From Rhizobium rhizogenes NBRC 13257 (GTDB lineage Bacteria > Pseudomonadota > Alphaproteobacteria > Rhizobiales > Rhizobiaceae): 64,000 nt of DNA. Under the pieces are notes generated by a model. That model had not been told where the DNA came from and ran no database searches. It worked only from the letters and a program-made list of their open reading frames with translations. Positions within the stretch are counted from its first letter, which is position 1. Every line of letters starts with the position of its first letter. The DNA is taken from positions 62,001 to 126,000 of the forward strand of contig NZ_BAYX01000004.1 in assembly GCF_000696095.1 (NCBI RefSeq). The letters are read 5' to 3'. Shown one piece after another: positions 32,731 through 41,719 of this stretch. Position numbers and translations under genes: made by a program.

Positions 32731-33300
32731 TCAGTCCTTGGCGCGCTCGACGTAGGAAACGTCTTCCGTGGCGATGACGACGCGGGTGCCGGCGTTGATG
32801 TGCGGCGGCACCAGGGTGCGTACGCCGTTCGACAGGATCGCAGGCTTATAGGAGGAGGAGGCCGTCTGACCCTTGACGACCGGTTCCGTCTCGGCGATTT
32901 CCAGCGTGACGTGGCGCGGCAGCTGAATGGCCAGCGGAATGCCTTCATGGATCGACAGGACGCAGGTCATGCCTTCCTGCAGGAAGGCCTTCTGGTCGCC
33001 CATGGTTTCGACATCGACGACAACCTGGTCGTAGGTGGCCGGGTTCATGAAGTGGAAGCCTTCGCCGTCTTCATAGAGATACTGGAAGTTCACGTCTTCG
33101 ACGAAGGCGCGCTCGACCTGCTCGGTGGTGCGCCAGCGCTCGGATACCTTCACGCCATCGACGATGCGGCGCATGTCGACCTGCGTGACCGGTGTACCCT
33201 TGCCCGGATGAAAGTTCGCGGCGGTGAGAACGACGTAGAGCTTGCCGTCGACGTCGAGAACGTTGCCCTTGCGGACTGAAGAGGCGATGACCTTTACCAT
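32731..33300 (-). CDS. efp: Translation elongation factor P
   Basis: This 189-residue protein has the three-domain EF-P length. The loop at residues 30-37 reads FHPGKGTP, with Lys34 at the position that EpmA modifies with beta-lysine. EF-P enters stalled ribosomes and speeds peptide-bond formation at polyproline stretches. The C-terminal segment contains [16 protein letters not shown]. The modification genes epmA and epmB lie divergently upstream. GGAAG precedes the ATG. Confidence 0.97.
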
Positions 33301-33451
33301 AAGACTTCCTTGTAACTCAGCTTGTCGCGTCGTAGAGGACTGTCGAAATACACCCCAGGACGCAGCTATTGTTTGCTTGGGGGCGCAACTACCCTAAATC
33401 AGCGGAAATAGCCACCCCCCCAACCCCGGCGGTCTTAAGAAGAAAGCATCG
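33301..33451. promoter_or_regulatory. Divergent promoter region of efp and epmA
   Basis: This 151-base gap must hold promoters for both efp (minus) and epmAB (plus). No consensus -35/-10 pair was clear. A run of C/G at 33412-33426 is notable. Confidence 0.4.
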
Positions 33452-34516
33452 ATGGAGCCAACGAGCAGCAAAGCGTCCCCCTGGTGGACCCGCAGCGTCC
33501 ATGCGGACCGGCGGCCGTTCCTTCTTGGCCGTAACGCCATCCAGGCGGCGCTGCGCGGTTTCTTCGCGCGCAACGACTTTATCGAGGTCGACACGGCGAC
33601 GCTGCAGGTGTCTCCGGGCAACGAGGCGCATCTGCATGCTTTTGCCACCGAGGCGCTGACGACGGATGGCCAGGCGGCGCCGTTCTATCTGCACACCTCG
33701 CCGGAATTTGCCTGCAAGAAGCTGCTGGCCGCCGGCGAGGAGCGCATCGCCTGTTTCGCCCATGTCTATCGCAATCGCGAGCGCGGGCCGCTGCATCATC
33801 CGGAATTCACCATGCTGGAATGGTACCGGGCCGGCGAGACCTATGAGACGCTGATGAATGATTGCGCCGTCTTGCTGGCGCTAGCAGCGGAGACAGTTGG
33901 GGCGAAGAAGCTTACCTATCGCGGCGCGGAGACCGATCCGTTTCTCGCGCCGGAACGCATCAGCGTCGCCGCCGCCTTCGAGCGTCATGCCGGGATCGAT
34001 TTGCTCGGCTCGGTCGGCCCCGACGGTTCCACGGATCGCGAGCATCTGGCGGCCGAGATGCGGCGTGTCGGCATGCGCGTTGCCGCCGACGACCATTGGG
34101 CAGATCTCTTCAGCCGTGTGCTGGTCGAGAAGGTCGAGCCCTATCTCGGCTTTGGCCGGGCGACGATCCTTGATGAATATCCGGTCTCGGAGGCGGCTCT
34201 TGCCCGGCCTTCGGCTGCGGACCATCGAGTGGCCGAGCGCTTCGAGCTCTATGCCTGCGGCGTCGAGCTCGCCAATGCGTTCGGCGAACTCACCAATGCA
34301 CAAGAGCAGCGGCGGCGGTTCGAGATCGAGATGGCGGAGAAAGCGCGGATCTATGGCGAGACCTATCCGCTGGACGAGGACTTTCTGCAGGCCCTTGCCG
34401 TCATGCCGGAAGCGAGCGGCATTGCGCTCGGCTTCGACCGGCTGGTAATGTTGGCGACCGGGGCTTCCAGGATCGAGCAGGTGCTCTGGGCGCCAGTATC
34501 GGAGTTTGGTTCATGA
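33452..34516 (+). CDS. epmA: EF-P--(R)-beta-lysine ligase EpmA
   Basis: This 354-residue class II lysyl-tRNA-synthetase-like enzyme lacks the tRNA anticodon-binding domain. It attaches (R)-beta-lysine to Lys34 of EF-P using ATP. Motif 2 is seen around FAHVYRNRERGPLHHPEFTM, and motif 3 is SGIALGFDRLVMLATGA near the C-terminus. LHTSPEFACKKLLAAGEER is typical of the family. It overlaps epmB by 4 bases and is divergent from its substrate gene efp. Confidence 0.95.
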   Translation: MEPTSSKASPWWTRSVHADRRPFLLGRNAIQAALRGFFARNDFIEVDTATLQVSPGNEAHLHAFATEALTTDGQAAPFYLHTSPEFACKKLLAAGEERIACFAHVYRNRERGPLHHPEFTMLEWYRAGETYETLMNDCAVLLALAAETVGAKKLTYRGAETDPFLAPERISVAAAFERHAGIDLLGSVGPDGSTDREHLAAEMRRVGMRVAADDHWADLFSRVLVEKVEPYLGFGRATILDEYPVSEAALARPSAADHRVAERFELYACGVELANAFGELTNAQEQRRRFEIEMAEKARIYGETYPLDEDFLQALAVMPEASGIALGFDRLVMLATGASRIEQVLWAPVSEFGS

Positions 34517-35565
34517 ATGTGATGCGCCCAATCAGAACTGTCGATGACCTCGAGCAGGCCGGACTGATCGATAGCGCCGAGGCACTTTCGCTGGAAGTGG
34601 TGGCGGAGCGTTATGCCATCGCCCTGACGCCGACGGTTGCCCGGTTGATCGATAAGGCCGATCCCGCCGACCCGATCGCCCGGCAATTCGTGCCCGACAT
34701 GGCCGAACTCGTCGTTACGCCTGAGGAGCGGGCCGATCCGATCAGCGATCATGCCTATAGCCCGGTCGAGGGCATCGTCCATCGCTATCCCGACCGTGTG
34801 CTGTTGAAGGCCGTGCATGTCTGCCCGGTCTATTGCCGCTTCTGCTTCCGCCGCGAGATGGTCGGGCCGCAGGGGCTCGGGACGCTGGATGGCGCGGCGC
34901 TCGATGCTGCCTTTGCCTATATCCGTGACCATGAGGAGATCTGGGAGGTGATCCTCACCGGCGGCGATCCGTTGGTGCTGTCGCCGCGCCGGCTCGAAGA
35001 GATGCTGCGGCAGCTTGCCGATATCGAGCATGTGAAGATCGTTCGCTTCCATACCCGCGTGCCTGTGGTCGATCCGCTGAAGATCGACGGGGCGCTGATT
35101 GCGGCGCTGAAGGCGAGCGGCAAGACCGTCTATGTGGCGCTGCATGCCAACCATCCGCGCGAACTGACGGCGGAGGCGCGCGCCGCCTGTGCCCGGCTGG
35201 TGGATGCCGGCATCGTGCTGGTCAGCCAATCCGTGCTGCTGAAGGGCGTCAATGACGATCCGGATGTGCTGGCTTCATTGATGAAGGCCTTCGTCGAAAC
35301 GCGGATCAAGCCCTATTATCTGCACCACCCTGATCTTGCTCCCGGCACCAGCCATTTCCGCCTGACGATCGCGGAAGGCCAGGCAATCGTCGCGGCGCTG
35401 CGGGGCCGTATCTCAGGCCTTTGCCAGCCGACTTATATCCTCGACATTCCCGGCGGTCACGGCAAGGCGGATATTGGCAAGAGTGCGGTTCGCGAGCTTG
35501 GCGAAGGCTGCTATTCCGTCTCGGACTATCGCGGCGGTGAGCATCTCTATCCGCCGGAGGGATAG
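34513..35565 (+). CDS. epmB: EpmB, lysine 2,3-aminomutase (radical SAM)
   Basis: This 350-residue radical SAM enzyme converts (S)-alpha-lysine to (R)-beta-lysine for EF-P modification. The [4Fe-4S] cluster motif CxxxCxxC is Cys104, Cys108 and Cys111 (CPVYCRFCFRR), and the Gly-rich EVILTGGDPLVLS follows. The PLP Lys lies towards the C-terminal third (GVNDDP and YYLHHPDLAPGTSHF segments are typical). Overlap with epmA and proximity to efp support this over a catabolic aminomutase. No epmC hydroxylase gene is in the window. Confidence 0.95.
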   Translation: MNVMRPIRTVDDLEQAGLIDSAEALSLEVVAERYAIALTPTVARLIDKADPADPIARQFVPDMAELVVTPEERADPISDHAYSPVEGIVHRYPDRVLLKAVHVCPVYCRFCFRREMVGPQGLGTLDGAALDAAFAYIRDHEEIWEVILTGGDPLVLSPRRLEEMLRQLADIEHVKIVRFHTRVPVVDPLKIDGALIAALKASGKTVYVALHANHPRELTAEARAACARLVDAGIVLVSQSVLLKGVNDDPDVLASLMKAFVETRIKPYYLHHPDLAPGTSHFRLTIAEGQAIVAALRGRISGLCQPTYILDIPGGHGKADIGKSAVRELGEGCYSVSDYRGGEHLYPPEG

Positions 35566-35919: not shown

Positions 35920-36171
35920 ATGAATGAGACGATTCGCGATTTGCTGGCCAAGTTCGGCGCACTTCCCGTTACGATGGATCAGATTGCCGACGATGCCGAT
36001 CTCTATGCGGCGGGGCTCTCCTCCTTTGCATCAGTGCAACTGATGCTCGGCATCGAGGATGCCTTCGACATCGAATTTCCCGACAATCTGCTCAACCGCA
36101 AATCCTTTGCCAGTATCGTCGCCATCGAAAAAACGGTCGGCATGATCCTGGATAGCCGAAAGGTCGCCTGA
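35920..36171 (+). CDS. Stand-alone acyl/aminoacyl carrier protein
   Basis: This acidic 83-residue protein has the four-helix carrier-protein pattern. The phosphopantetheine site is in DLYAAGLSSFASVQLML, with Ser35 in the position of the usual DSL Ser (here SSF). It is not the housekeeping AcpP, which has a DSLD motif. The GLSSF form resembles the carrier proteins that partner amino acid:carrier-protein ligases in Bradyrhizobium and Agrobacterium, and such a ligase lies two genes downstream. Start chosen at 35920 (MNETIRDLL). The next gene starts on the last base of its stop (TGATG). Confidence 0.9.
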   Translation: MNETIRDLLAKFGALPVTMDQIADDADLYAAGLSSFASVQLMLGIEDAFDIEFPDNLLNRKSFASIVAIEKTVGMILDSRKVA

Positions 36172-37364
36172 TGAACGTGGCGGTCGCTTTGGTTGATGCT
36201 GGGGCCGGCGACAAGATGACGGCGCGGGCCGCGCGCGTCGCGGCGATTGCGGGCAAGCATGCCGATTCGGTCGATGTCGAAGGCCGCTTCCCCCGTGAGG
36301 CAGTCGAGGCGATGCGAGCGGAGAAGCTGCTGTCGGTCCAGATCTCCGACGAACTTGGCGGCGAGGGCGCGTCGATCACCGAGATCGCCGAGCTTTGCTC
36401 CATCCTCGGTCAGGCCTGTGCCGCCAGCGCCATGGTTTTCGCCATGCATCAGATCAAGCTGTCGAGCCTGGTCGAACACGGCGCCGGCAGCGACTGGCAC
36501 CGCGACTTCATGCGCCGCATCGCCAAAGAACAGCTTCTGCTGGCCTCGGCGACCACGGAAGGCGGTATCGGCGGCAATCTGCGCAACAGCACCTGCGCCA
36601 TCAAGGTCGAGGGTGACAGTTGCTTTCTAGAGAAAGACGCGACCGTCATCTCCTATGGCGCCCATGCGGATGCGATCCTGATTACCTCGCGCAGCCATGC
36701 CGAAGCGGTCTCTTCCGACCAGGTGCTGACCGTTTTCTTGAGAGATCAATATACGCTTGAACGCACCGTCGAGTGGAACACGCTCGGCATGCGCGGCACC
36801 TGCTCCGACGGCTTCCTGTTCAAGGGCGAAGCGCCTGCCGTGCAGATCTTGCCGAAACCCTTTGCCGAGATTGCCGCGCAGTCGATGCTGGCAAGCTCGC
36901 ATCTGCTGTGGAGCGGCGTCTGGTATGGCATCGCCGCCGACGCCGTCGCTCGCGCCCAGGCTTTCGTGCGCGCCGCCGCCCGCAAATCGCCCGGCACTCA
37001 ACCGCCCGGCGCGCTGCGGCTGGCGGAGGTCTCCGGCCTGCTGCAAATGGTGAAATCCAATGTCGTCGCCGGCCTGAAAACCTATGAAGAGGCGAAGGCT
37101 GATGCCGATCGTCTCTCCTCGATGGCCTTTGCCGTCGCGATGAACAACGTCAAGATCGCGTCGTCGGAGATGATCCTGCCGATCATCAACCACGCCATGC
37201 TGATCTGCGGCATCATGGGCTACAAGAACGGCACGCCCTATAGCCTCGGTCGCCATCTGCGCGACGCGCATTCCGCTCAATTGATGATCTCGAATGACCG
37301 CATTCTCGGCAATACGTCGACCATGCTGCTCGTCCACAAACAAGATACCAGCCTGTTGGGGTAA
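36171..37364 (+). CDS. Acyl-CoA dehydrogenase-like flavoprotein
   Basis: This 397-residue protein has the acyl-CoA dehydrogenase fold: an N-terminal helical domain, a beta-domain with [18 protein letters not shown], and a C-terminal helical domain ([20 protein letters not shown]). The usual catalytic Glu of the EGTS motif aligns with Gly380 (LGNTS), so the canonical base is missing or placed elsewhere. Its place between a carrier-protein gene and an amino acid:carrier-protein ligase suggests that it acts on an aminoacyl-S-carrier rather than acyl-CoA, as known flavoproteins do in prolyl-carrier oxidation. This is inference. Confidence 0.85.
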
Positions 37365-37369
37365 TCGTC

Positions 37370-38278
37370 ATGGATATGCAAACATCGTTTCTCGACCGCC
37401 TTTTCGAATCCGGTCTTCTGATCGACACCGGCGTTGACGGTCTTTATGGCCGCAGCGGCCAGTTCGAAGATGTCATCGCCGCCTTCGAGCGGCTGATCGA
37501 CAGGTTCGGCGGTGCCGATGGCGCCGAAGCCATCCGCTTTCCGCCGGGCATGAACCGCGCTTTCTTCGAGACGAGCGGCTATATGAAGAGCTTTCCGCAG
37601 CTTGCCGGCACGGTGCATAGCTTCTGCGGCAATGAGCTCGACCATATGAGCCTCTTGAAGTGCATGGAAGTCGGAGAGGACTGGACGAAAGATCAGCAAG
37701 CGACCGATATCGTGCTGACGCCGGCGGCCTGCTATCCGCTTTATCCAACGGTCGCCAAGCGTGGTTCCCTGCCGGAAGCTGGTGCGCTCTTCGATCTGCA
37801 GTCCTATTGCTTCCGCCATGAGCCTTCCAAGGATCCGGCCCGCCAGCAACTGTTCCGCATGCGCGAATATGTCTGCATGGGCACCGACAAGCATGTGACC
37901 GACTTCCGCCAGAGCTGGATGGATCGCGGTATCGAGATGATGAAGGCCGTTGGTCTCGACGTCGTCATCGATGTCGCTAATGATCCGTTCTTCGGCCGCG
38001 CCGGCAAGATGCTCGCCAACAACCAGCGCGACCAGAACCTGAAGTTCGAGTTGCTGATCCCGATCACTTCGTCGGCCAATCCGACCGCCTGCATGAGCTT
38101 CAACTATCACCAGGACGCCTTCGGCGCGAAATGGGGTCTGAATTTTGCCGACGGCAGTGTCGCGCATACGGCCTGCGTCGGCTTCGGCCTGGAGCGTATC
38201 GCGCTGGCGCTGTTCCATCACCATGGTCTCGATACGAAGGATTGGCCCGAGGGCGTGCGCAAGGCGCTGTGGGGCTGA
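37370..38278 (+). CDS. Amino acid--[carrier protein] ligase (class II aaRS-like)
   Basis: This 302-residue relative of atypical seryl-tRNA synthetase lacks a tRNA-binding arm. It should adenylate a small amino acid (Gly or Ala in characterised Bradyrhizobium and Agrobacterium homologues) and transfer it to carrier phosphopantetheine. The zinc ligands match the known set: Cys121 (TPAACYP), Glu166 (FRMREYVC) and Cys269 ([13 protein letters not shown]). The motif 3 Arg is in GFGLERI. It lies 5 bases after the flavoprotein gene and 2 bases before the DUF1839 start. The amino acid used here cannot be read from sequence. Confidence 0.92.
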
Positions 38279-38280
38279 TC

Positions 38281-39240
38281 GTGGCTTCCATCTTTGCGGG
38301 CCTGGACCCTGCCGCCTATCAACCGCACGCACTGCACGACAGTGAGCGCATGTGGCCGGAAACCAATTGCTATATCGATCTCTGGATCGAAGTGCTGGCG
38401 AGTCTGAAACTGCCGCCGGAAGCCATGCTTGGTTTTACGATGGGTCAGGATTTCGAGGGCGATCAATTCACCTTCTTCAAGGTGCCGCTCGAGGATCTCG
38501 AAGCGCTCTACGGCATCCGCTGCACGGAGCTTGCGATCTACGACAAGGTCGAGCGCCATGTCGCCGAGCAGATCGGTCGCGGCCGGCTCTGCCTGGTCGA
38601 GATGGATTCCTTCTACATGCCGGACACCCAGGGTGTCGGCTATCGCCGCGAGCATGGCAAGACGACCGTTGCCATCAACCGGCTGAATCTGGCGGGCCGC
38701 GAGCTCGACTATTTCCACAATGGCGGCTTCTTTCAGCTGTCGGGCGAGGATTTCGACGGGCTGTTCCAACTGCATCTGACGGACGAGGATCTGCCCTTCC
38801 TACCCTATACGGAATTCGCGAAGTTCCCGGAGATCAAGCCCGGCGAGGCGGCTATCCGGCAAACATCCAGGCAGCTGCTGGCCTTCCATTTCCGCCGCCG
38901 GCCCGTCGCCAATCCCATCCGCTCCTTCGCGGCGGTTTTCCCGGCGCAGGTCGAAGCCTTGGCCGAGCGACCCTTCGGCTTCTTCCATAAATATGCCTTC
39001 AACACGCTGCGCCAAGTCGGCGCTAATTTCGAGCTGGCGGGCAGCCATCTCGATTGGTTGTCTGCGGATTTTGCCGAGGTTGCTGCCCAGGCACGGCGGA
39101 TTTCGGAAGTGGCGAAATCGGTACAGTTCCAGCTTGCCCGCGCCATCACGCGCAAGAAATTCGAGCCGTTGCAGACGGCGCTTGATCCGGCGGCGGATGC
39201 ATGGGATTCCATGATGGGGCTGCTGGAACAAAAGCTTTAG
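38281..39240 (+). CDS. DUF1839 family protein, possible acyl/aminoacyl transferase
   Basis: This 319-residue protein has a GTG start two bases after the ligase stop. It has no established function. Visible features are NCYIDLW with Cys30, the conserved-looking segment MGQDFEGDQFTFFKV (54-68), and REHGKTTVAINRLN with His125, followed by GRELDYFHNGGFF. The Cys then His/Asp order recalls papain-like transferases such as BtrH, which moves an acyl group from a carrier protein to an amine. A C-terminal helical part (about 225-319) may bind the carrier. The transferase idea is inference from layout and context only. Confidence 0.75.
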   Translation: MASIFAGLDPAAYQPHALHDSERMWPETNCYIDLWIEVLASLKLPPEAMLGFTMGQDFEGDQFTFFKVPLEDLEALYGIRCTELAIYDKVERHVAEQIGRGRLCLVEMDSFYMPDTQGVGYRREHGKTTVAINRLNLAGRELDYFHNGGFFQLSGEDFDGLFQLHLTDEDLPFLPYTEFAKFPEIKPGEAAIRQTSRQLLAFHFRRRPVANPIRSFAAVFPAQVEALAERPFGFFHKYAFNTLRQVGANFELAGSHLDWLSADFAEVAAQARRISEVAKSVQFQLARAITRKKFEPLQTALDPAADAWDSMMGLLEQKL

Positions 39241-39247
39241 GGATCCA

Positions 39248-41719
39248 ATGCACGGGCGTTTGGCTGATATCAGCGGCAAGACGCCGCTGAGCGAAGGATG
39301 GAATCTGGTTCTGACGGATGCGAGCGTCTGCGCTTCGCCTTCGGACCTGTCGTTTTCGGCTGGCCTCATCCCCGCGCCAGTGCCGGGTACCGTGGCCGAG
39401 GCATTGGAAAAGGCCGGGCTTTTTAATCGGGAGCATCCGCATCCGTTGAACGACCGGGACGCCTGGTATCTCTGCCGGTTGGTCGATGCCGAGGCTGGCA
39501 ATGCCGTGCTGCGGCTTGAGGGATTGGCAACGCTCTGCGAAGTCTTCCTGAACGGACGCAAAATTCTCGTCTCCGAGAGCATGTTCGAAACGCATAATCT
39601 TGCCGTTCATCTGCTGGGCGGCGATGAGCTGGCCCTGTGTTTTCGAGCGCTGGAGCCGCGCCTTGCCGAGCCCGGCCCGCGCGCCCGCTGGCGGCCGCAG
39701 ATGATCACGCCGCAGGGACTGCGGCTGGTACGAACGACGCTGCTCGGCCATATGCCCGGCTGGTGCCCGGAAATCGATGCCGTCGGGCCATGGCGACCGG
39801 TGTCGCTGCTGCATCCGCATAGACCTGTCATTCGCGATCTTTCGCTGCGTCCGGATCTGTTGGAGGACGGCGAGGGCCGGCTCTATGCCTCGTTGTCGAT
39901 CGAAGGACATGTGAGCGACGTCACGCTTCGCTGTGGCGAGGTCGAACAGGCTTTCGAGCTAGACAGTCATGGCCGCTGCACAGCGATCCTGAAAATCCCC
40001 CGTGTGACGCCATGGTGGCCGCGCACGCATGGCACGCCGTATCTTTATGACGTGACGCTGGTCGTCGATGGTGTCGAGCATCCGCTTGGGCGAACCGGTT
40101 TTCGCCGGCTGGCTGTCGATCGCGGTGCCGATGGCCGGGATTTCGGCCTGATCGTCAATGGCGAGCGCATCTTCTGCCGTGGCGCGGTCTGGACTACGGC
40201 GGATATCGTGCGGCTGCCCGGTGGCCGCGAGGATTACGAGCCTTGGCTGCGGCTGGCGGCGGAAGCGGGCATGAACATGATCCGCATCGGCGGCACCATG
40301 GCCTATGAGACGCCGGAGTTTTTTCGGCTCTGCGACGAGCTCGGCCTGCTGGTCTGGCAGGATTTCATGTTCGCCAATTTCGATTATCCGAAGGGCGACA
40401 AGGGTTTCAACACCCATGTCGAGGCGGAAGTGGCGCAATTTCTTGGCCATACACGCCTGTCACCATCGCTCGCTGTGCTTTGCGGCGGCAGCGAGATGCA
40501 TCAGCAGGCGGCGATGCTCGGCCTGCCGGAAAGGTTCTGGGCAAGTCCGATCGTGGAGGAGATCATTCCGGCGGTCGCGCAATCGCTGCGGCCCGACGTG
40601 CCCTATGTCGTCAACTCCCCCTCCGGCGGGCCCATGCCGTTTTCCGCGAATGAAGGGGTGACGCACTACTACGGCGTCGGCGCCTATATGCGGCCGCTCG
40701 ACGATGCGCGTCGCGCCGATGTCCGTTTCGCGGCGGAAAGCCTGGCTTTCGCGCATGTGCCGCAGGCCCGGACGTTGTCGCGGCATCTGCCGGTCCCGGT
40801 GGTGCATAGTCCGCTATGGAAGGAGCGCGTACCGCGCGATCGCGGCGCTTCCTGGGATTTCGAGGATGTGCGTGATCATTATCTTTGCGAACTCTACGGT
40901 TTCGAGCCGGACCGGCTGCGGCGGGAGGATCCCGATCTCTATCTCGCTCTGTCGCGGGCCGTCACCGGCGAGGTCGCGCAAGAGACCTATGCGGAATGGC
41001 GCCGGCAGGGTTCGGGCTGCAACGGCGCTCTCGTCTGGACGCTGCAGGACCTGCTCCCCGGCCCCGGCTGGGGCGTGATCGATTCGACCGGCGAGCCGAA
41101 GCCCGTATGGTATGCGCTACGCCGCGCCTTCCGGCCGGTGCAGGTGCTGCTCACCGACGAGGGCACCAATGGCCTCGATGTGCATGTGATCAACGAGAGC
41201 GATGCGGCGCTTGAGCTCGATCTTGACGTCTCGTGCCTGAGAGACGGACGGCAGAGGGTCGTGGGTGGAAAACGAGAGCTGTCGATCGAGGCTCGTTCCA
41301 AGAACAAGATCGCCTGCACGGATCTGTTCGGCGCCTTCTTCGACACCACCTATGCCTTCCGCTTCGGCCCGCCGTCGCATGATGTCACGGTGGCGCAGAT
41401 TACGGCGCGCGACACGGGTTCGCTGATCGCCGAGGCTTTCCATTTTCCTCTGGGCAGGACGAAAGCCTTTCACGAGGCGGAAATCATGGCATCCGTTTCA
41501 CAGCAGGATGGCCACTGGTTCCTCGATCTGCGCGGTGACCGGCTGGCTCAGTCGCTCCAAGTCGATTTCGAAGCCTATCGGGCTGAGGATGACTGGTTCC
41601 ATCTGGCGCCTGGTTTGAAACGACGGCTGCGACTTCAGCCGAGAGCCGGAACTGCGATCGGGACCGTTCCGACAGGTCAGGTCAAAACTATCGGTAGCCG
41701 GCGAATAATCGAAGTTTGA
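39248..41719 (+). CDS. Glycoside hydrolase family 2 / beta-mannosidase-like protein
   Basis: This 823-residue protein starts 8 bases after the DUF1839 stop, so it belongs to the operon. It shows a GH2 plan: an N-terminal jelly-roll (AWYLCRLVDAE, LEGLATLCEVFLNG), an immunoglobulin-like domain, and a TIM barrel (MNMIRIGGTMAYETPEFFRLCDELGL, then VWQDFMFANFDYP). The acid/base region reads CGGSEMHQQ with Glu416, in place of the usual CGNNE. It has no signal peptide, so it is probably cytosolic. The substrate is unknown. It may trim or bind a sugar moiety of the operon's product rather than degrade polymer. Confidence 0.8.
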   Translation: MHGRLADISGKTPLSEGWNLVLTDASVCASPSDLSFSAGLIPAPVPGTVAEALEKAGLFNREHPHPLNDRDAWYLCRLVDAEAGNAVLRLEGLATLCEVFLNGRKILVSESMFETHNLAVHLLGGDELALCFRALEPRLAEPGPRARWRPQMITPQGLRLVRTTLLGHMPGWCPEIDAVGPWRPVSLLHPHRPVIRDLSLRPDLLEDGEGRLYASLSIEGHVSDVTLRCGEVEQAFELDSHGRCTAILKIPRVTPWWPRTHGTPYLYDVTLVVDGVEHPLGRTGFRRLAVDRGADGRDFGLIVNGERIFCRGAVWTTADIVRLPGGREDYEPWLRLAAEAGMNMIRIGGTMAYETPEFFRLCDELGLLVWQDFMFANFDYPKGDKGFNTHVEAEVAQFLGHTRLSPSLAVLCGGSEMHQQAAMLGLPERFWASPIVEEIIPAVAQSLRPDVPYVVNSPSGGPMPFSANEGVTHYYGVGAYMRPLDDARRADVRFAAESLAFAHVPQARTLSRHLPVPVVHSPLWKERVPRDRGASWDFEDVRDHYLCELYGFEPDRLRREDPDLYLALSRAVTGEVAQETYAEWRRQGSGCNGALVWTLQDLLPGPGWGVIDSTGEPKPVWYALRRAFRPVQVLLTDEGTNGLDVHVINESDAALELDLDVSCLRDGRQRVVGGKRELSIEARSKNKIACTDLFGAFFDTTYAFRFGPPSHDVTVAQITARDTGSLIAEAFHFPLGRTKAFHEAEIMASVSQQDGHWFLDLRGDRLAQSLQVDFEAYRAEDDWFHLAPGLKRRLRLQPRAGTAIGTVPTGQVKTIGSRRIIEV

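Follow-up and report, generated by a model that had tools for sequence, protein, structure and literature searches.

The window analyzed here, 64,000 nucleotides of Rhizobium rhizogenes NBRC 13257, contains a five-gene operon on the plus strand (positions 35920 to 41719) that, in our judgment, has a somewhat better than even chance of serving to decorate a polysaccharide sugar with an amino acid, with the amine of a sugar unit, later to be built into an extracellular polysaccharide, as the attachment site. The operon encodes, in order, a carrier protein, a flavoprotein of the acyl-CoA dehydrogenase (ACAD) fold, an amino acid:[carrier protein] ligase resembling aminoacyl-tRNA synthetases (aaRSs), a DUF1839 protein, and a GH2 protein. 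All five reading frames are intact and are separated by gaps of −1, 5, 2, and 7 bases, exactly as described in an earlier note on this DNA, and the genome that holds them (7.04 Mb) is that of a Rhizobium. The central idea is not new. In a note added in proof from 2010 (PMC2922099), the Atu2571-2574 neighborhood is described as holding liposaccharide genes and genes for a carrier, a redox enzyme, a ligase, Atu2574, and a glycosidase, with the prediction that the aminoacyl group is first monooxygenated and then joined by Atu2574 to a sugar amine as an amide. We favor the same prediction and bring new evidence for it: the gene set and the predicted sugar-amine amide are the same, whereas the redox enzyme in the present operon has an ACAD fold rather than a Rossmann fold. 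What we add is a fold match between DUF1839 and CcbD, covariation between a DUF1839 cysteine and the ligase, placement of the genes between berA and berB in Burkholderia, and a separate matching polysaccharide cluster in this genome, none of which was found in the literature searched. That literature, covering DUF1839, Atu2570-2575, and BCAM1343-1348 and in some cases available only in part, contained no functional study of the pathway.

The earlier note proposed that the five genes form one pathway and suggested comparing genomes for their co-occurrence. Among 137 loci having both ligase and DUF1839 (drawn from a nonrandom set in which 80 loci are the top 80 among 303 relatives and the remainder were chosen for spread, with at least three records counted twice from two source collections), 132 hold the five genes in the same order within 7 kb. 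Of the five exceptions, L132 and L201 end at contig ends, L103 and L163 (probably one record) are without GH2, and L219 is rearranged. The closest named matches of the DUF1839 protein come from Rhizobium sp. ICMP 5592 (97%) and R. rhizogenes OV677 (96%); it is present in all 37 genomes searched within the genus and in 2/24 others of the order. In a sample of 398 genomes from the phylum, DUF1839 occurs in 16, and in all 16 the coordinates place a ligase gene next to it. It was further found on 59 plasmid records from Rhizobium, Azospirillum, Mycetohabitans, Caballeronia, Burkholderia, Cupriavidus, Shinella, Methylobacterium, and Phyllobacterium.

The DUF1839 protein (38281 to 39240, 319 amino acids from a GTG start; PF08893, 446 bits) is predicted to be a CcbD/CtaG-like carrier-dependent aminoacyltransferase. 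Its AlphaFold2 model (predicted local distance difference test [pLDDT] score, 81; predicted template modeling score, 0.82) superimposes on CcbD over 284 residues, with a Z score of 18.7 and a root mean square deviation of 3.8, across both the papain-like and the helical domain. Further matches are AziU2/U3 (Z of 17.4) and CtaG (16.6), and the next entry outside this group falls to 7.7. A sequence search of the PDB gave no match up to an E value of 5, and the BtrH_N profile (PF14399) was not matched by the protein, for which DUF1839 was the sole profile listed up to an E value of 1. The fold common to DUF1839 and CcbD does not by itself prove a common function. In lincosamide synthesis, the amino acid is activated via an adenylation domain; here an aaRS-like ligase would activate it, the triad runs C-T-H, and a GH2 protein is present. 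The likeness lies in a carrier-bound amino acid, a two-domain papain-like enzyme, and a cysteine nucleophile (which we infer for DUF1839): in lincosamide synthetase (CcbD/LmbD with a carrier), CcbD is reported to use a cysteine to join proline held on the carrier to a thiosugar amino group. Butirosin BtrH is likewise a carrier-dependent papain-like acyltransferase, as predicted for DUF1839, but DUF1839 is without the BtrH_N match. The candidate triad comprises Cys30 (codon at 38368 to 38370), Thr128 (38662 to 38664), and His146 (38716 to 38718), all on the plus strand, and Cys30 starts the first papain-like helix (residues 31 to 42 in the model numbering, in which this cysteine is residue 31, as opposed to 30 when counted from the GTG). 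On the strength of fold and covariation, DUF1839 would take the aminoacyl group on Cys30 and pass it to an amino group, much as CcbD does with its thiosugar. Transfer to an acceptor, perhaps a sugar, had also been proposed in the earlier note, and the CcbD-like fold and the polysaccharide loci described below support this part of it, with a sugar as a plausible acceptor.

Cys30 did not emerge as invariant in a conservation scan, where it remained below 98.5%, and a copy-by-copy count was therefore made. Among 150 DUF1839 copies in 143 loci, 138 retain both Cys30 and His146, and Thr128 is present in 138/138 of these. A copy with intact Cys30 and His146 is found in 136 of the 137 ligase loci; in the genome of the 137th, such a copy lies on a different contig. 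Cys30 is missing from 12 copies. Six of these are block copies (that is, copies within the five-gene block) whose locus also holds an intact second copy next to ManC (L150, L216, L218, L222, L230, and L235); one, in L148, is paired with an intact copy elsewhere in its genome, on the contig of L149; L194 and L197 each contribute a second copy that adjoins a sugar phosphotransferase gene; and three (L220, L231, and L232) lie in loci without ligase. Of the genomes of the last three, G541 and G457 have no ligase and G481 has a distant one below the cut-off, and none of these three genomes without an orthologous ligase has a DUF1839 copy in which Cys30 and His146 are intact. Ligase, carrier thiol, and DUF1839 cysteine thus tend to be lost together, the three cases lying within one family. 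Together with the conserved gene order, these joint losses (of the ligase and the DUF1839 cysteine in three genomes, with the carrier serine gone as well in one of them) support the single pathway that the earlier note had in mind. The block in L220 (G541) is decayed: ligase and GH2 were not found in it, the carrier serine is replaced by proline and the DUF1839 cysteine by alanine, and the flavoprotein is kept. As a separate observation, the block copy has lost its cysteine and the ManC-side copy has kept it in each of the paired cases (the six loci above and L148/L149), and it is possible that such pairs consist of an enzyme and a pseudoenzyme.

The link to polysaccharides is seen in two families. 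DUF1839 occurs in 60/150 Burkholderiaceae genomes, and among the 50 of these 60 covered by a search with PF13727, 41 have a match to that profile at most 10 kb from a DUF1839 gene, whereas copy number and genome size would predict 0.73; in several Caballeronia-like genomes, the DUF1839 gene close to PF13727 is a second copy and not that of the block. Within 39 Burkholderiaceae ligase loci, we found genes for a phosphotransferase (26 loci), a CRP-like regulator (30), Wzc (16), ManC (11), OPX (11), a VpsR-like regulator (9), Wzy (7), and a double alpha/beta hydrolase (17), and 30 of the 39 have at least one of five polysaccharide markers. On a replicon of Burkholderia cenocepacia, the genes run phosphotransferase, CRP, CRP, carrier, flavoprotein, ligase, DUF1839, GH2, and a VpsR-like sigma-54 regulator, followed by a 259-amino-acid protein (no Pfam match; COG2153-like by eye), ManC, two glycosyltransferases, and Wzc. 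Published descriptions assign Bcam1342 to BerB (sigma-54), Bcam1349 to BerA (CRP/FNR), Bcam1341 to a COG2153 protein, Bcam1340 to ManC, and Bcam1339 to a beta-helix protein. Six genes lie between the two regulators on the replicon, and six numbers lie between Bcam1342 and Bcam1349; a beta-helix gene stands beside ManC in L152 and L204, the replicon itself being without one. Because gene order and count agree with Bcam1340-1349, the block most likely corresponds to Bcam1343-1347, inside the berA-berB interval and beside the Bep polysaccharide genes.

In the Rhizobiaceae, a double alpha/beta hydrolase gene follows GH2 within the flank in 41 of 50 named loci, those outside L068-L098 with L095 counted among them, and a flippase-like gene is also present in 36. 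This hydrolase is a fusion of two domains resembling those known as exosortase A-associated hydrolases 1 and 2 (TIGR03100 and TIGR03101), with both matches below the curated cut-offs. Found beside the block in many loci, it also occurs in a polysaccharide cluster of the present genome, where hydrolase, flippase (PF13440), GT2, and GT4 genes stand in the same arrangement at 203 to 208.5 kb of the contig. The operon lies at 97.9 to 103.7 kb, approximately 100 kb away, and the hydrolase-flippase-glycosyltransferase cluster is closest to the block-adjoining copies in L095 and L101 (66 to 79%). The likely partners of the pathway would be this flippase, glycosyltransferase, and double-hydrolase cluster in Rhizobium and the Bep region in Burkholderia.

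Several observations weigh against polysaccharide decoration. No polysaccharide gene adjoins the operon in the window, its flanks being occupied by EF-P, EpmA, EpmB-like, and ABC/Gfo-Idh genes, nor does the flank contain any in the remaining 30 Rhizobiaceae loci (of 80 named), the group that includes this operon; similarly, 9 of the 39 Burkholderiaceae ligase loci have none of the five polysaccharide markers. The 41 of 50 genomes with a nearby PF13727 match include members of one genus, which are not independent of each other, so that the very small probability calculated for this association, which takes related genomes to be independent, is affected; in one of the 41 (G538), moreover, the match is a 644-amino-acid protein whose identity as a sugar phosphotransferase is uncertain. 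The C-T-H order of the DUF1839 triad differs from the Cys-His-Glu of CcbD. Since the order is not Cys-His-Glu/Asp, we do not file DUF1839 as a member of the CcbD/CtaG type and claim only that it may work like one; a 2023 paper assigns it to the papain-like superfamily, describes its triad as an altered C-(T/S)-H one, and offers glycan processing as a guess. The Burkholderia polymer Epol H111-INS, extracted in 0.3 M NaOH, is reported to consist of Gal, Glc, and Man only, and therefore no sugar amine is known there; either an ester bond was lost in the NaOH or the acceptor is another sugar. Finally, while the phylum sample yielded ligase matches in 44 genomes at an E value of 0.001 and 28 over the curated cut-off, 12 of these 28 have neither DUF1839 nor GH2 in the 15 to 20 kb fetched. 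In these 12 (Bradyrhizobium-like and others), the flavoprotein adjoins the ligase in 12/12 and a carrier was detected in 10/12; therefore, carrier, flavoprotein, and ligase are the core of the system, and DUF1839 and GH2 are a module.

The separation of the block from polysaccharide genes in the R. tropici/rhizogenes-like set would also be expected if the product were a soluble amino acid-sugar small molecule, as in lincosamide synthesis, with the polysaccharide genes being neighbors through shared precursors or regulation. DUF1839 is CcbD-like, and the product of CcbD is a small antibiotic; moreover, a cytoplasmic GH2 protein (no signal peptide is apparent by eye) could cut a small glycoside. 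We nevertheless consider this unlikely, as flippase, OPX, Wzc, Wzy, ManC, and phosphotransferase genes are repeatedly associated with the block in two classes and the conserved block includes no resistance or efflux gene. Alternatively, the bond itself could be different, DUF1839 transferring the aminoacyl group to a sugar hydroxyl to give an alkali-labile ester, in effect like the D-alanylation of teichoic acids. Extraction in 0.3 M NaOH would remove esters, and such a decoration would agree with an Epol H111-INS in which no amino sugar is seen, but CcbD, the nearest solved relative of DUF1839, makes an amide, as CtaG and BtrH do, and an ester is in our view improbable. Even more doubtful is release, by which the carrier-bound amino acid would be oxidized and then hydrolyzed off by DUF1839 as a modified free amino acid for other use: the papain-like part belongs to a superfamily rich in hydrolases and the 12 loci have ligase and flavoprotein without DUF1839, but the two-domain model fits carrier-dependent synthases far better than single-domain papain-like entries.

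Decoration of a polysaccharide sugar would proceed along a cytoplasmic assembly line whose product is a sugar unit bearing a small amino acid or an oxidized form of one. Its first step, by close homology to a tested pair, would be adenylation of a small amino acid by the aaRS-like ligase and loading of the carrier phosphopantetheine. The carrier protein (35920 to 36171, plus strand; 83 amino acids; PF00550 and NF005480) has the GLSSF site pointed out in the earlier note at residues 32 to 36, in which Ser35 (codon at 36022 to 36024), kept in 139 of 140 aligned sequences, is the likely phosphopantetheine site. It matches 2jq4 (Atu2571) and chain C of 4h2w, the carrier of that structure, across residues 1 to 82. 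The ligase (37370 to 38278, plus strand; 302 amino acids; NF005479 at 520 bits, with a curated cut-off of 357) matches 4h2w and 3mey, and its Cys121, Glu166, and Cys269, also named in the earlier note and taken here to be zinc ligands, are invariant in 145 aligned ligases (149 were found and 4 short or broken ones dropped). Ligase residues 209 to 221 (13 letters) are the same as in 4h2w, whereas 3mey has GRVGQMKAVSQKQ there; 4h2w is presumably the Bradyrhizobium ligase carrying the Agrobacterium carrier-recognition segment, with which the alignment agrees. With the Bll0957/Atu2571 system (PDB 3mey, 4h2w, and 2jq4), the present pair thus has in common both families, full-length matches, and the carrier-recognition segment, and the ligase operon includes a carrier gene of the Atu2571 kind. 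Since carrier and ligase match the solved pair, loading of an amino acid on the carrier rather than on tRNA is predicted by close homology; two reviews give Gly, Ala, or Ser as the substrates of the family.

More distant relatives of the ligase were also sampled. Of those below the cut-off, one is near a BtrH_N protein and one is by a thioester-reductase-like protein, and the neighbors of the remaining ones showed no clear pathway. The former belongs to a nonribosomal peptide synthetase-type cluster (L182:7215-10550) with a BtrH_N protein, an aminotransferase, and a carbamoyltransferase, in which the ligase relative (27 to 28%, below the cut-off) is two genes from the BtrH_N protein. Near one Bradyrhizobium-like ligase locus without DUF1839, there are two GGDEF-EAL proteins (L168:3871-8615).

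In the second step, the ACAD-fold flavoprotein (36171 to 37364, plus strand; 397 amino acids; PF02771 and PF00441) would oxidize the aminoacyl group on its carrier, either hydroxylating or desaturating it. Residues C83, H93, E130, R208, H244, R361, R364, D365, and I373 are invariant (150/150). The fold and domains of acyl-CoA dehydrogenases are present, but the usual catalytic Glu is absent at either aligned position: Ile373 aligns with the catalytic Glu of the medium-chain acyl-CoA dehydrogenase MCAD and Ser243 with that of isovaleryl-CoA dehydrogenase, in sequence alignments read by eye. The model (pLDDT, 67) gives Z scores of 32.8 to 35.4 over 50 entries for monooxygenases, nitrososynthases, dehydrogenases, and ColB1 alike, and as these scores tie, the fold favors neither dehydrogenase nor monooxygenase. 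ColB1 acts on assembly-line-bound cysteine. The flavoprotein likely oxidizes, as a dehydrogenase or a monooxygenase; of the oxidized imino or dehydro form suggested in the earlier note, oxidation therefore stands as likely, while the particular form is not favored by a fold that matches both enzyme types or by the Ile in place of the ACAD Glu.

The last step is the weakest: the GH2 protein (39248 to 41719, plus strand; 823 amino acids; PF22666 and PF00703) might trim or edit a mannoside-like acceptor or a wrong conjugate, an action on the conjugate having been suggested in the earlier note as well. Judged from its sequence, it is of the beta-mannosidase type, with its activity predicted; the closest solved structures are beta-mannosidases, and Glu416 and Glu497, which align with 5n6u and 2vjx at what we take to be the catalytic positions, are both present in 127/127 aligned proteins (134 found, 7 dropped). 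The GH2 gene is fragmented in L099, L100 (a plasmid record), L102, L104, and L164 and was not found in L103/L163, with the other four genes kept in all of these; in L099, the first 44 ligase residues failed to align. Accordingly, GH2 may be an accessory step, or its function may be provided elsewhere.

Upstream of the operon, positions 32731 to 35565 hold genes for EF-P (minus strand), EpmA, which is another aaRS relative, and a lysine-2,3-aminomutase-like protein (TIGR03822, EpmB-like). They were rejected as pathway members, as they belong to separate known families and end 354 bases before the carrier gene; their homologs each cluster in only 3 of 20 block loci, all in Rhizobiaceae (a lower bound, since the gene caller misses genes). 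The downstream ABC and Gfo/Idh genes were set aside because they are on the opposite strand.

More tentatively, it is possible that sugar units of biofilm exopolysaccharides are aminoacylated and oxidized by a widespread pathway made up of an aaRS-derived ligase and a CcbD-type amide synthase and that in Burkholderia this pathway, as part of the cyclic di-GMP (c-di-GMP)-regulated Bep region, sets a property of the matrix. If this is true, polysaccharide decoration would be a purpose for this kind of ligase, and a descendant of tRNA synthetases would take part in cell surface chemistry. A c-di-GMP-controlled matrix polysaccharide may then bear a modification that alkaline extraction could hide, and DUF1839 would gain a testable activity and one residue, Cys30, to which it can be tied.

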